The notes under the pieces: generated by a model
Told to the model about the DNA's origin: nothing
Databases searched by the model: none
What the model saw: the letters and a program-made list of their open reading frames with translations, nothing else
Origin: Haloprofundus halobius
GTDB lineage: Archaea; Halobacteriota; Halobacteria; Halobacteriales; Haloferacaceae
Length of the DNA stretch: 64,000 nucleotides
Direction: 5' to 3'
NCBI RefSeq assembly: GCF_020097835.1
Contig: NZ_CP083666.1
Coordinates: 558,001 to 622,000 of the forward strand
Shown here: piece by piece, positions 3,472 to 49,154 of the stretch
Position numbering within the stretch: position 1 is the first letter of the stretch
Layout of the letters: every line of letters begins with the position of its first letter
Translations under genes and position numbers: made by a program

Positions 3472-5721
3472 TTACTCTTCCTGCGCGTCCACGACCGCCA
3501 CACCCGCCAGATTCACGATGTCTTTGACTTCGTCGCCGCGCTGGAGCACGTGGACCGGCTTGTCCATGCCGACGAGCATCGGGCCGATGGCCTCCGCGCC
3601 GCCGAGGCGCTGGAGCAGTTTGTAGCCGATGTTGCCCGCTTCGAGGTTCGGGAAGATGAGCACGTTCGCCGGTTCGTCGAGGTCCGTGAAGTCGTAGGTG
3701 CCTTCGAGAATCTCCTCGACGACAGCGGTGTCGGCCTGCATCTCGCCGTCGACGGGGAAGTCGACCTCGGGGTCCTCGTGCAGCAGCCCCACCGCGTCGC
3801 GCGGTTTTCGGGTGCCCTCGTTGTCGACGCTGCCGAAGTTCGAGTACGACAGCATCGCCGCGCGGGGTTCGACGTTGAACCGGCGCGCGAGTTCGGCGGT
3901 GTGTTTCGTGACCTCCGCGAGCACGTCCGCCGTCGGGTCGAGGTTCACCGTCGTGTCGGCGGCGAAGATGACCCGGTTCTTGAACGTCAGCATGTACACC
4001 CCGGCGGCGTAGTCGGCGTCTTCGGCGGTGCCGATGACCTGCAGCGGCGGTCGAAGCGCCGATGGGTAGTGGTGCGTCAGGCCCGTGAGCAGCGCGTCGG
4101 CGTCGCCCTGTTCGACCATCACACTACCGAAGTAGTTACTGTCGCGGCGGATCAGTTCGCCCGCCTCGCTCCGGGTGATGCCTTTGCGCTGGCGGAGTTC
4201 GTGGAGTCGGTCGGCGTAGCCCTCGTGGTCCTCGCCCGCCGGGTCGACGATGTTCACGTCGAACTCCAGGCCGAGGTTCGCGGCCGTGTCGCGGATGGTG
4301 TCGGCGTCGCCAAGCAGGATGGGTTCGGCGATGCCCTGCTCTCGAATCTGGTAGGCGGCGCGGATCATCTTCTCGTCGGTCCCCTCCGCGAGGGCGACGC
4401 GCTTGGGGTTCGACTTCGCCTTGTTGAGGACGACGCGCATCATCTCGCGGGACTTGCCGAGGCGGGCTTCGAGGCGCTCCTCGTAGTCGGCGACGTCGAT
4501 GTCCTTGCGGGCCGCGCCGCTGGTCATGGCGGCCTGTGCGACGGCGGGCGCGACCTCGAACAGCACGCGCGGGTCGAGCGGTTTCGGGATGATGTACTCG
4601 GAACCGAACTGCAACGGCTGGTCGCCGTACGCCTTCACGACGGCGTCGGGCACGTCCTGGCGGGCCAGTTCGGCGAGCGCCTCCGCGGCGGCGACTTTCA
4701 TCGCCTCGTTGATCTCGGTCGCGCGCACGTCGAGCGCGCCGCGGAAGATGAACGGGAAGCCGAGCACGTTGTTCACCTGGTTCGGGTAGTCCGAGCGCCC
4801 CGTCGCCATGATGACCGTGTCGTCGCGGGCGTCTTTCGCCGCCTCGTACGGTATCTCGGGGTCGGGGTTCGCCATCGCGAAGATGACGGGGTCGTCGGCC
4901 ATCGACCGAACCATCTCCGGCGAGACGATGTCGGCGACGGAGAGACCGACGAACACGTCGGCGCCCTCCATCGCGTCGGCGAGGTCGCCGTTCGGGCGGT
5001 CGGCGGCGAACTCGCGCTTGAACTCGTTGACCTCGTCGGAGCGGTCGACGGTGATGATGCCCGAGGAGTCGCACATCGTGATGTTCTCGCGCTTCGCGCC
5101 GAGCGAGACGTAGAACCGCGCCGTCGCGATGGCGCTCGCGCCGGCGCCCGAGAAGACGATGTCGAGTTCGTCGAGTTCCTTGTCGACGATTTCGGCGGCG
5201 TTCAGAAGCGCCGCGCCGGAGATGATGGCCGTCCCGTGCTGGTCGTCGTGGAAGACGGGGATCGATACCTCCTCGCGGAGTCGCGACTCGATTTCGAAGC
5301 ACTCGGGCGCTTTGATGTCTTCGAGGTTGATCCCGCCGAACGTCGGCTCCATCGCGGAGACGCACTCGATTATCTCGTCGGGGTCGGCGCGGTCCAACTC
5401 GATGTCGAACACGTCGATGTCGGCGAAGCGCTTGAACAGGACGCCCTTACCCTCCATGACGGGCTTCGACGCCTGCGCACCGATGTTGCCGAGGCCGAGC
5501 ACCGCAGAACCGTTCGATACGACGCCGACCAGGTTGCCTTTGGCGGTGTAGTTGTACGCCTCGTCGGCGTCGTCGGCGATATCCAGACACGGTGCGGCGA
5601 CGCCGGGCGAGTACGCCAGGCTCAGGTCGCGTTGGGTGTTCGTCGGTTTGGTCGTCGAAATCTCGATTTTGCCGGGAGGTGATTGTCGGTGGTACTCCCG
5701 TGCGTCGTCATCCAGCCCCAT
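3472..5721 (-). CDS. maeB: NADP-dependent malic enzyme (malic enzyme + phosphotransacetylase-like domain)
   Basis: 749 residues from the ATG at 5721; a longer upstream reading frame exists but lacks family similarity. It oxidatively decarboxylates malate to pyruvate. The N-terminal malic-enzyme domain is visible: [41 protein letters not shown] (about residues 58-87), then FHDDQHGTA and the nucleotide-binding [10 protein letters not shown]. The C-terminal ~320 residues (from about 430, RMVVLNKA...[12 protein letters not shown]) form the phosphotransacetylase-like domain of the MaeB type, thought to be regulatory. Full length for the family (~750). The tail is duplicated at 3343-3393. An A/T-rich CATAGTTTT lies about 30 nt upstream. 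Confidence 0.95.
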
Positions 5722-11457: not shown

Positions 11458-12216
11458 ATGAGCGACAACGAACACACGTATCTACTCGAGGTGGACCGCG
11501 TCTCCCAGAGCTACGGGACCGAGAAAGTGCTGCGCGACATCAGTTTCGAGATGGGCCGCGGCGACGTGACGGTGCTCGTCGGCCCGAGCGGGTCGGGGAA
11601 GTCGACGATGCTGCGCTGCGTCAACCGACTCACCGAGATCGACAGCGGCGACATCTACCTCGACGGCGAGCGCGTCACCGGACCCGACGTCGACGTGAAC
11701 GAACTCCGCAAGGAGGTCGGCATGGTGTTTCAGGGCTTCAACCTGTTCGCGCATCTCACGGCACGTCAGAACATCATGCTCGGGCCGCGTCGCGTGCTCG
11801 GCCTCAGTAAGGAGGAGGCCGGAAAGCGCGCCGACGAGCACCTGGAGATGGTCGGCCTCACCCCGCAAGCGGACTCCTACCCCGGCGAGCTTTCCGGCGG
11901 CCAACAGCAGCGCGTCGGCATCGCCCGCGCGCTGGCGATGGAGCCGAAACTGATGCTGTTCGACGAGCCGACGAGCGCGCTCGACCCCGAACTCATCGGG
12001 GAGGTGCTGGAGGTGATGCGCGACCTCGCAGACCGCGGGATGACGATGCTCGTCGTCACCCACGAGATGAGCTTCGCGCGCGAAGTCGCCTCCGAGATGC
12101 TGTTTCTCGACGGCGGGAAGATCGTCGAGCGCGGCCCACCCGAACAGCTGTTCGAGCGCCCTGAACAGGACCGCACGGCGTCGTTCCTCCGGCGCATCAC
12201 CGAGATGCACTCATGA
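11458..12216 (+). CDS. Amino acid ABC transporter ATP-binding protein (GlnQ type)
   Basis: 252 residues. I use the ATG at 11458 because the protein then begins just before the first beta strand; an earlier ATG at 11380 would overlap the permease. The ABC motifs are complete: Walker [11 protein letters not shown] (about 40), Q-loop MVFQGFNLF, signature LSGGQQQR (about 145), Walker [12 protein letters not shown] and H-loop VTHEM. It energises import by the two permeases. Its stop codon overlaps the start of the second permease gene (4 nt). Confidence 0.95.
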
Positions 12217-45972: not shown

Positions 45973-46215
45973 ATGTCCATCGAACTCTACGCGCTGGACG
46001 GCTGTCCGTACTGCGAGAAAGTCCACGACGCGCTGCAGGAGAACGACATCGACTACGAGACGTACTGGACCGAGGCGATGCACTCCGAGCGCGACGAAGT
46101 CAAGCGCGTGAGCGGTCAGCGCGGCGTCCCCGTGCTCGTCGACGACGACCACGGCGTGACGATGAACGAGAGCGAGAACATCCTCACGTACATCGAACAG
46201 ACGCTGGCGCGATGA
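45973..46215 (+). CDS. Glutaredoxin / GST N-terminal-like thioredoxin-fold protein
   Basis: 80 residues. The redox motif is LDGCPYCEKVHDAL (CxxC at 11-14), with the cis-Pro loop RGVPVLVDD and a C-terminal NESENILTYIEQT, as in glutaredoxins and GST N-domains. It would reduce disulfides or act in thiol metabolism; the thiol partner in haloarchaea is often gamma-glutamylcysteine. It overlaps the adenosyltransferase start by 4 nt (ATGA), so the two are co-translated. Confidence 0.88.
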   Translation: MSIELYALDGCPYCEKVHDALQENDIDYETYWTEAMHSERDEVKRVSGQRGVPVLVDDDHGVTMNESENILTYIEQTLAR

Positions 46216-46745
46216 AGATCTACACCGGTCGCGGCGACGAGGGACTGACTGACCTCCGGGACATGTCGCGCGTCTCGAAGACGAGTCCACGCATCGAAGC
46301 CTACGGTACCGTCGACGAGGCGAACGCGCTCGTCGGCACGCTCCGACCGACCGGCTACGACGACGTCGACGAGATACTCGAACGCGTCCAGAACCATCTG
46401 CACATCATCCAGGCGGACTTCGCGAACCCCGACCCCGACGAGGACGACCCGCAGGTGCGCGAGGAGCACGTCGAACGGTTGGAAGAGTGGATTGACGAGA
46501 CGAGCGAGGAACTCGAACCGCTGCAGTCGTTCATCCTCCCCGGTGGGAGCGAGTCCGGTGCGGGGCTGCACCACGCCCGAGCGGTCGTCCGCCGCGCCGA
46601 ACGCCGCGCCGTCGCACTCGCCGGCGACGAACCGGTGAACGAGCACGCGGTGACGTACCTCAACCGACTGTCGGACGCGCTGTTCGTCTTCGGTCGGCTC
46701 GTCAACGCCCGCGACGGCGAGAGAGAGGAGTCACCGACGTACTGA
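46212..46745 (+). CDS. Cob(I)yrinic acid a,c-diamide adenosyltransferase (PduO type)
   Basis: 177 residues. Transfers adenosyl from ATP to cobalt(I) to form adenosylcobalamin. Family marks: MKIYTGRGDEGLTDL (nucleotide-binding N-terminus), RIEAYGTVDEANALVG, FILPGGSESGAGLHHARAVVRRAERRAV (about 116-143) and YLNRLSDALFVFGRLVN. The product serves methylmalonyl-CoA mutase among others, which fits pccB later in the window. Its start overlaps the glutaredoxin-like gene. Confidence 0.93.
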   Translation: MKIYTGRGDEGLTDLRDMSRVSKTSPRIEAYGTVDEANALVGTLRPTGYDDVDEILERVQNHLHIIQADFANPDPDEDDPQVREEHVERLEEWIDETSEELEPLQSFILPGGSESGAGLHHARAVVRRAERRAVALAGDEPVNEHAVTYLNRLSDALFVFGRLVNARDGEREESPTY

Positions 46746-46865
46746 CCGCTCGTCGGGTAGCGTCGAAAGAACCCGGTGAGTCCGAGATGATGCCCACGGA
46801 CGCCGGGGGTTGGGACAGATGCGGTGTCTGACGAGACCGGACAGGTGCGGTCACAACACCGTGTT

Positions 46866-46879
46866 TTAGGTTAGCCTAA
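46866..46879. promoter_or_regulatory. DtxR/IdeR-like iron-box palindrome, copy 1
   Basis: TTAGGTTAGCCTAA, close to the metal-regulator consensus of the DtxR/IdeR/SirR family. It lies between the adenosyltransferase gene and tRNA-Val with no gene reading away from it. Confidence 0.5.
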
Positions 46880-46901
46880 GACACGCAAAAAGCGTTGCGA
46901 T

Positions 46902-46915
46902 TTAGGTTGGCCTAA
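46902..46915. promoter_or_regulatory. DtxR/IdeR-like iron-box palindrome, copy 2
   Basis: TTAGGTTGGCCTAA, 36 bp from copy 1 (center to center) and nearly identical; the extended form TTTAGGTTGGCCTAAA is palindromic at its outer 6 bases. Confidence 0.5.
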
Positions 46916-47033
46916 AACAGCCGGGACGCGTGAACACCCGCGGAACGGCGCGTCGCCCGGCGGTTTCGGGGGGCCGAAGCAACGGTCGGACAAGAAAATC
47001 CTTAAGTTCTACCCGCGGGTACGACTGAGTGCC

Positions 47034-47108
47034 GGGTTGGTGATCTAGTCTGGTTATGATACCTCCTTCACACGGAGGAAGTCGGCAGTTCAAATCTGCC
47101 CCAACCCA
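47034..47108 (+). tRNA. tRNA-Val (anticodon CAC)
   Basis: A 75-nt cloverleaf: acceptor GGGTTGG pairs with CCAACCC, discriminator A. The anticodon stem CCTCC/GGAGG encloses loop TTCACAC, so the anticodon is CAC (Val GTG codons). The T arm contains GTTCAAAT. No CCA is encoded. An A/T-rich CTTAAG box is about 30 nt upstream. There is no intron. Confidence 0.95.
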
Positions 47109-47454: not shown

Positions 47455-47655
47455 ATGAACGAGAAAACCTCCACCGAACTGAGACGCGCGACGTACCGCG
47501 CGCTCTGCAAGTACGGGCACGCCGCGGTGACGATGCGCGACATCGTCGACGAGTCCTCGAAGAGCGAGGTGACCCTCTACGACCGCTTCGAGAGCAAGCG
47601 CGGCCTGCTGGTAGCGCACGATTCGAGGGACGAAACCGAGGTGCGCGCCGAGTGA
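47455..47655 (+). CDS. TetR family regulator, reduced to the DNA-binding domain
   Basis: 66 residues. TetR HTH is clear: TELRRATYRALCKYGHAAVTMRDIVDESSKSEVTLYDRFESKRGLLVA (about 7-54). Normal members have a further ~130-residue ligand and dimer domain; here the frame ends soon after (HDSRDETEVRAE). The stop overlaps the GTG of the MATE gene by 4 nt. Either the effector domain was deleted and the junction fused to the transporter, or a minimal repressor is retained. The operator at 47395 supports recent function of the family in this operon. Confidence 0.7.
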   Translation: MNEKTSTELRRATYRALCKYGHAAVTMRDIVDESSKSEVTLYDRFESKRGLLVAHDSRDETEVRAE

Positions 47656-49154
47656 GCCTGCTCGACCGCATCGACAGCGTGTTCAAAGGTCCGGAGGACG
47701 TCGACCTCACCTCGGGCGGCATCGCGCGGCCGCTGTTCTACCTCTCGTTGCCCATCGTCCTCACGAACCTGATGCAGACGGCGTACAACCTCGCCGACAC
47801 CTTCTGGCTCGGCCAGTACGACACCGCCGCGCTCGCAGCCATCAGCTTCGCGTTCCCGATGGTGTTTCTGCTCATCGCCATCGGGATGGGCTTTTCCGTC
47901 GCGGGTAGCGTGCTCGTCGCCCAACACACGGGCGCGAACGACGCGAAGCAAGCCGAGTACGCGGCGTCGCAGACGGTGACGTTCTCGCTTCTCGCCGCGC
48001 TCGTGCTCGGACTCGTCGGCTTCGTCTTCGTCGAACAACTGCTGAGCATCTTCGGGGCGTCTCCGGAGGTACTCCCGATGGCGACGAGCTACATGCAGGT
48101 CATCTCGCTCGGCCTCATGTTCATGTTCGGCTTCTTCGTCTTCGTCGCGCTGATGCGCGGCTACGGCGACACCGTCACCCCGATGCTCGTCATGTTCGGG
48201 TCGGTCGTGCTCAACATCTTTCTCGACCCGTTTCTCATCTTCGGATTCGAGAACAATCCCCTCTTTACGATGCTCGGAATGGAGAACCTCCAGTCGACGC
48301 TGTTCGTCATGACGGGCTACACCGGGTCGGGTATCACCGGCGCGGCCGTCGCGACCATCTTCTCGCGGGCGCTGGCGCTGGCCGTCGGGTTGGCGATCAT
48401 GTTCGACGGAACCCGCGGCGTGGAGATTCACCTCCGCGACATGACCCCGAACTTCGGCTACGCGCGGAAACTGCTCGCTATCGGACTCCCCGCGTCCGTC
48501 GAGGGCTCCGGCCGCGCCGTCTCGATCAACCTGCTGCTCATCGTCGTCGGACTGTTCTCGACGAACGTCGTCGCCGCCTACGGCGTCGGGACGCGCGTGC
48601 TGTCGGTCATCTTCCTGCCGGCGCTCGCCGTCGCCCGCGGCGTCGAGACGATGACCGGCCAGAACATCGGCGCGGACAAACCCGACCGCGCAGAGAAGGC
48701 CGCCACCAGCGCCGCCTTGACGATGTTCGTCGTCCTCTCGGCGTTGGGCGTGCTCACCTGGTTCGCCGCCCGCCCCATCGTCGGAGTGTTCACCGACAAT
48801 CAGGAAGTCATCGCAATCGGCGCGGAGTTCCTCCGCTTCGTCGCGCCGACGTTCGGCTTCATCGGCGTCGTCCAGTCGTTCGTCGGGAGTTTCCGCGGCG
48901 CGGGCAAGACGGTCGTCGCCGCCGTCATCTCGGTGTCGATGCTCGGCCTCGTTCGCCTCCCCGTCGCCTTCTTCGGGGCCACCGACTTCGGTGTGGGTCT
49001 CGGTTCGTCGGGTATCTGGCTCGGATTCGCCGTCTCGAACGTCGTCGGCGGCGTCATCGCGTTCCTCTGGTACCGCCGGGGAACGTGGCGCGGCGTCGAC
49101 ATCTCGTCGAATCGGGACGCACCGAACGTCGAGGCCGAACTGACGGACGACTGA
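47652..49154 (+). CDS. MATE family multidrug/cation efflux transporter
   Basis: 500 residues with a GTG start overlapping the tetR stop. Twelve hydrophobic segments; family sequence GIARPLFYLSLPIVLTNLMQTAYNLADTFWLGQYDTAALAAISFAFP (about 20-66) and the second-half equivalent GLPASVEGSGRAVSINLLL. MATE proteins export drugs or metabolites using Na+ or H+. It would be controlled by the adjacent TetR-type operator. The C-terminus is a short acidic tail. Confidence 0.93.
   Translation: MSLLDRIDSVFKGPEDVDLTSGGIARPLFYLSLPIVLTNLMQTAYNLADTFWLGQYDTAALAAISFAFPMVFLLIAIGMGFSVAGSVLVAQHTGANDAKQAEYAASQTVTFSLLAALVLGLVGFVFVEQLLSIFGASPEVLPMATSYMQVISLGLMFMFGFFVFVALMRGYGDTVTPMLVMFGSVVLNIFLDPFLIFGFENNPLFTMLGMENLQSTLFVMTGYTGSGITGAAVATIFSRALALAVGLAIMFDGTRGVEIHLRDMTPNFGYARKLLAIGLPASVEGSGRAVSINLLLIVVGLFSTNVVAAYGVGTRVLSVIFLPALAVARGVETMTGQNIGADKPDRAEKAATSAALTMFVVLSALGVLTWFAARPIVGVFTDNQEVIAIGAEFLRFVAPTFGFIGVVQSFVGSFRGAGKTVVAAVISVSMLGLVRLPVAFFGATDFGVGLGSSGIWLGFAVSNVVGGVIAFLWYRRGTWRGVDISSNRDAPNVEAELTDD

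Follow-up and report, generated by a model that had tools for sequence, protein, structure and literature searches.

The locus studied here raises the question of what is controlled by two near-palindromic boxes that stand 36 bp apart, start to start, beside a tRNA-Val gene of Haloprofundus halobius. A preliminary description of this DNA, a window of 64,000 nucleotides, had read the boxes as metal-dependent repressor sites, had called them orphan and had offered three possibilities: the remains of a gene since lost, control of a small RNA missing from the annotation, or an effect on the tRNA region. Our answer is sequence-based and draws on the boxes, the promoter layout, a conserved structured RNA, the complementarity of this RNA to mRNAs and the co-variation of that complementarity. 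According to our analysis, boxes, promoter, and RNA likely make up the gene of a DtxR-repressed, iron-sparing small RNA (sRNA) that would silence ferredoxin and aconitase, an analogue of RyhB in archaea. Transcription, DtxR-type repression, iron response, pairing in the cell, translational block, and the exact RNA ends are what we infer from these lines of evidence.

Paired DtxR-type operators at the tRNA-Val locus

Both boxes were found where they had been placed by the preliminary description. The proximal operator TTAGGTTAGCCTAA (46866..46879, minus strand) lies just upstream of the predicted transcription start, while the distal operator TTAGGTTGGCCTAA (46902..46915, minus strand) lies 5' of the sRNA core promoter and is kept in all five congeners; each box is an exact match to its pattern, and the strict palindrome of both is TTAGG-N4-CCTAA. 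Between the two boxes and on the same strand, the spacer alignment reveals a BRE-like element, TCGCAACGC (46892..46900; TCGYAACGC in most of the genus), with the same layout as at other double boxes, followed by the TATA-like element TTTTTG (46886..46891), which was judged by analogy and lies some 25 nt upstream of where the RNA is predicted to begin. This TATA element is weak, and other double boxes carry TTTTAT- or TTTAAA-like elements.

When the whole Haloprofundus genome was searched, TTAGGN4CCTAA was found at 17 sites, compared with a single site for a reversed-pattern control; most of these sites stand in front of genes for siderophore-type uptake or siderophore synthesis. Box pairs, counted as two boxes spaced 10 to 36 bp apart, number five in the H. 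halobius genome (29 to 37 bp start to start) and two to six in each of four congeners, and at least one is present in 106 of the 171 Haloferacaceae genomes, whereas the reversed-pattern control gave none in every listed genome. The arrangement of box, BRE/TATA, and box with the same spacing is common across Haloferacaceae (control: 0), the BRE/TATA sitting between the two boxes at the other double boxes as well. Two genes for binding proteins have their start codon no more than about 6 bases past the second box, and therefore the downstream box of these other double boxes sits at the transcription start. Several other boxes in the genome precede genes encoding Peripla_BP_2 binding proteins, a FecCD permease, and a class-III aminotransferase (Pfam domains); the last looks like the diaminobutyrate (siderophore) type, and a gene downstream of a double box in Haloferax bears that annotation. 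The genome encodes two DtxR-family proteins, each with PF01325 as well as PF02742. That the boxes belong to a metal-dependent repressor is thus supported by how enriched they are across the genome and by the iron-uptake genes that other copies precede, and they are best described as operators of a DtxR-family repressor, the binding protein being predicted.

Two further sites in the genome deserve mention. A single box just before a glutamine synthetase-like gene (L020, about 3594-3607; G000 C2:33593-33606) would point to an unexpected member of an iron regulon, and a 29-bp double box stands ahead of a gene whose product has a reversibly-glycosylated-polypeptide (RGP) domain (L018, about 11832-11874; G000 C1:1726831-1726873), the same pair being found again in three congeners.

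A predicted conserved, structured RNA directly behind the boxes

On the minus strand, the boxes are directly followed by a predicted small RNA gene of about 94 nt (46769..46862, ends approximate) with two hairpins, two seeds, and no ORF. This block, read from 46862 to 46769, shows 92.4% mean pairwise identity across the genus. This exceeds the 89.4% of the adjoining coding gene, where third codon positions reach 77.5%, and is far more than the 61% and 53% seen in flanking non-coding DNA, the lower value referring to the stretch between the distal box and the tRNA promoter. Hairpin 1 (46822..46861, minus strand) and hairpin 2 (46772..46807, minus strand), which carries the ferredoxin seed in its loop, both display compensatory changes between genera. 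Across nine sequences, 96% of the cells are paired in the two-hairpin structure versus 29 to 45% for slid controls, and 12 of the 27 base pairs changed on both sides versus 0 to 4 for slid controls, with the qualification that the covariation alignment was fitted to the structure and that the 96% figure and the covariation count are inflated as a result. When single sequences are folded independently, most homologues again form these two hairpins; the sRNA of H. halobius taken by itself exceeds shuffled sequences only slightly in stability (z -1.37).

A covariance model (CM) built from five congeners, with the box and the tRNA outside the model, identified further copies in genera g10 and g11 (genera are given here by our working numbers), all of them directly behind a box and near tRNA-Val(CAC). 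The neighborhoods of tRNA-Val(CAC) yielded additional copies in g5, g7, and g9; in g12 and g14, longer versions stand behind double boxes next to this tRNA. Genus g9 is taken to be Haloferax, since one g9 genome shares 90% identity with a plasmid of Haloferax larsenii over 3 kb. CM and synteny together place the sRNA next to tRNA-Val(CAC) in eight or more genera, in each case immediately behind a box, and a box touches the RNA 5' end in every tRNA-Val-adjacent homologue found in Haloferacaceae, an arrangement that would place the sRNA promoter under the iron repressor. The search for the double box in relatives, which had been proposed earlier, found boxes conserved beside tRNA-Val(CAC) with the RNA following the box, and the suggestion that the boxes drive an unannotated small RNA is strongly supported by this conserved, structured candidate.

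A divergent homologue with tRNA-Val(CAC) and both seeds was detected in another family of the order (G190, L244); its single box stands 42 bp ahead of where the model begins, and this copy suggests that the sRNA may be older than the family. In many Haloferacaceae genera no copy was detected at the tRNA-Val locus with the models used, and an order-wide pattern search gave no further convincing copy. The tRNA-Val(GAC) copies retrieved from relatives are without boxes. Weak CM or pattern matches lacking boxes or tRNA (L090, L091, L238, L242, L243, and L246) were treated as chance, and an 11.6-bit match at a double box of genome G025 (L046) was dropped, the true copy in this genome being L124. 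Rfam returned the tRNA as the only match in the window, with no relation to RyhB or to any other curated family. The longer versions in g12 and g14 (L069-L072, L153-L155) contain a further conserved motif, GUAUCGCCUCCGUC, whose complement holds an SD-like GGAGG, in some copies followed by ATG, suggesting that a third target may exist.

Two seeds complementary to ferredoxin and aconitase start codons

In an alignment of 13 homologues, the stems vary freely, and the linker (G)CRUCUGUCCC and the loop CCGUGGGCAUCA are nearly invariant, the core of the loop fully so. The loop of hairpin 2 presents the ferredoxin seed (46788..46799, minus strand), which is the complement of TGATGCCCACGG at the start codon of fdx, the gene for the main [2Fe-2S] ferredoxin (MPTVEYLNYE..., Fer2 domain). 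Pairing was assessed by contiguous Watson-Crick seed matches, full-length duplex energies being dominated by unspecific long pairing. Between the loop and the fdx start there are 12 to 14 Watson-Crick bp in g1, g5, g7, g10, and g11, 10 to 11 in Haloferax (g9), 9 to 13 in g14, and 8 to 9 in g12 (13 with G-U in one), and in 18 of 22 genomes shuffled sRNAs attained the observed pairing length 0 times in 300. In g14, the fdx start reads ATGCCAACGG (ATGCCAACAG in one) instead of ATGCCCACGG, changing ATGCCC to ATGCCA, and the RNA loop reads CGUUGGCAUCA instead of CGUGGGCAUCA, changing GGG to UGG; the two substitutions constitute a matched, compensatory change on both partners. Two other genes, secY (L157, G000 C1:360954) and a plasmid orc/cdc6 gene (L163, G000 C2:110716), also begin with ATGCCCACGG and are complementary to the sRNA loop over 10 to 11 nt; they could be extra or false targets.

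The unpaired linker, which is the reverse complement of TGGGACAGA(CGC), harbors the aconitase seed UCUGUCCCA (46811..46819, minus strand); this seed is complementary to UGGGACAGA, where the aconitase gene (acn) has its start codon. In haloarchaea the aconitase protein opens with MGQT, and its gene starts ATGGGACAGAC in every sRNA-bearing genome where it was found. In the H. halobius genome, ATGGGACAGA occurs at seven sites, among which only the aconitase copy starts a long open frame. In most genera the linker pairs with acn over 8 to 11 bp. The pairing extends over 9 bp in most congeners, H. halobius included, over 11 bp in g7, 10 to 11 in g12, 10 in Haloferax genome G032, and 7 in g10, and one Haloferax genome has an interruption in it; the seed of g12 and g14 has moved into the loop of a third hairpin, with the match kept. 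Complementarity to mRNAs of iron-using proteins is thus kept in evolution, more weakly for aconitase in some genera, and aconitase is deemed the less certain of the two predicted targets.

Both genes were ranked in a sample of 792 predicted genes of H. halobius that deliberately contains them, so that ranks and not p-values are meant: by loop pairing energy the top gene is ferredoxin, and by length of the linker match it is aconitase. Moreover, four of the six genomes without a detected sRNA (G008, G104, G165, and G170) have lost one of the two complements. These results, together with the fact that the two most conserved unpaired stretches both match start codons of iron-sulfur proteins and that the compensatory change in g14 fits ferredoxin, argue against an account in which the boxes do drive an iron-repressed RNA, but one with other real targets, its complementarity to fdx and acn being coincidental or a partial story. 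We consider that account unlikely, although it can appeal to the complement of the MPT start shared by secY and the plasmid orc/cdc6 gene, to the short aconitase pairing in g1 and g10, and to the extra conserved motif of g12 and g14.

For the preferred reading, in which ferredoxin and aconitase are the targets, the form of their mRNAs is relevant. TATA-like elements are located about 28 to 30 bases before the ATG of ferredoxin (TCTAATG) and of aconitase (TTTATA), from which both mRNAs look leaderless or nearly so, and pairing would therefore mask their 5' end and start codon. In the proposed mechanism, the paired DtxR-family operators would flank an archaeal core promoter on the minus strand, and with sufficient iron the repressor would hold this promoter off. 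When iron is scarce, the sRNA of about 94 nt would be transcribed leftwards from about 46862 and would fold into two hairpins, exposing two antisense seeds. At the start codon, the mRNA of the main [2Fe-2S] ferredoxin would pair with the hairpin-2 loop and the aconitase mRNA with the linker; with the 5' end and start codon of both messengers buried, translation would stop and iron would be spared. Since the repressor is active with iron present, the sRNA would be made only under iron shortage, lowering two iron-sulfur proteins. The predicted ferredoxin target is presumably the same protein as HVO_2995 of Haloferax volcanii. Iron starvation of H. volcanii lowers the ferredoxin HVO_2995 about 2-fold (PMC11349517), a drop that lends the proposal indirect support but could also stem from causes other than the sRNA.

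Coding potential and neighboring genes

It is very improbable that the boxes drive the gene of a tiny protein and not a non-coding RNA. The minus strand does contain a 50-aa ORF with a GTG start (46702-46854), but a small ORF on this strand was ruled out, since single-base indels between congeners break every reading frame within the conserved block; furthermore, the conservation is uniform and not codon-patterned and stops before the pduO stop codon, and the stems covary.

The locus is bordered by a cobalamin adenosyltransferase gene (46212..46745, plus strand; Pfam PF01923, E 3.6e-58), which is convergent with the predicted RNA and does not overlap it, and by tRNA-Val(CAC) (47034..47108, plus strand; ARAGORN and Rfam), a conserved neighbor running in the direction opposite to the sRNA. 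All five congeners keep box, promoter, and box between these two genes. Beyond the tRNA, a very short TetR-like HTH ORF of 66 aa (window 47455-47655) looks truncated and is directly followed by a 500-aa MATE-type transporter ORF (47652-49154), both assigned by eye. The tRNA is the nearest plus-strand gene and the neighborhood is conserved, but regulation of the tRNA-Val gene, or a relic of a lost iron gene, is hardly tenable: the BRE/TATA between the boxes (TCGCAACGC-TTTTTG) reads leftwards on the minus strand, away from the tRNA, as at other double boxes, which ruled out a rightward promoter; 67 poorly conserved bases lie between the distal box and the conserved tRNA promoter; depending on the genus, box and tRNA are about 60 to about 500 bp apart, whereas the RNA always abuts the box; and all five congeners as well as seven or more other genera conserve the boxes, promoter, and RNA, which contradicts a relic. 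The earlier remark that no iron-uptake gene lies nearby holds for proteins, but a predicted RNA gene does follow on the minus strand, and with this conserved gene directly behind them the boxes are not orphan.

Relation to known iron-sparing RNAs

In bacteria, small RNAs that spare iron are textbook material. RyhB is a Fur-repressed enterobacterial sRNA which is made at iron shortage, pairs near start codons, and lowers iron-using proteins including aconitase; PrrF of Pseudomonas is an iron-repressed, iron-sparing sRNA, and the iron-sparing MrsI of mycobacteria is controlled by IdeR, a DtxR-family repressor. The haloarchaeal sRNA differs from RyhB in its predicted DtxR-type and not Fur control, in the absence of any Rfam relation, and in its predicted action on leaderless mRNAs through two start-codon seeds. 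With MrsI it would share control by a DtxR-family repressor; MrsI, however, is bacterial and, as far as known, has other targets. The haloarchaeal DtxR family includes Idr1 and Idr2 of Halobacterium and Idr, SirR, and TroR of Haloferax, and members of this family, with two candidates in the genome, are the expected repressors of the sRNA. An sRNA target is not reported in the accessible portions of the literature on this family.

IsrR of Staphylococcus and FsrA of Bacillus are likewise iron-repressed, iron-sparing sRNAs (PMC9410917, PMC11257911, PMC12871923). Both, like PrrF, are Fur-controlled and bacterial, and the haloarchaeal sRNA has no Rfam match to any of the three. Among haloarchaeal RNAs, s479 of Haloferax (PMC8155600) and the Haloferax oxidative-stress sRNAs (PMC5892119) resemble the predicted sRNA in having proposed trans targets, but they are tied to zinc transport and to oxidative stress, respectively; the latter paper makes no mention of ferredoxin, aconitase, or DtxR. 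Our survey of the open-access literature found no account of an iron-repressor-controlled archaeal sRNA with fdx and acn as targets. By kind, the predicted RNA is iron-sparing sRNA-like, and by descent it is a new RNA family. We think it likely that it represents the first archaeal iron-sparing sRNA, a DtxR-controlled family whose members lie next to tRNA-Val in eight or more genera of the Haloferacaceae and probably also in another family of haloarchaea; its two co-evolving seeds would mask leaderless fdx and acn mRNAs at their start codons.

To our knowledge, archaeal sRNAs with a clear regulator, targets, and conservation are rare. The one described here comes with a switch, a structure, two predicted targets, and target co-variation. 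If the proposed reading is true, it would be a case of convergent evolution, in which the iron-sparing regulatory logic arose under an unrelated repressor, and the counterpart in the genetically tractable Haloferax would allow direct tests of whether sRNAs control leaderless mRNAs in archaea.
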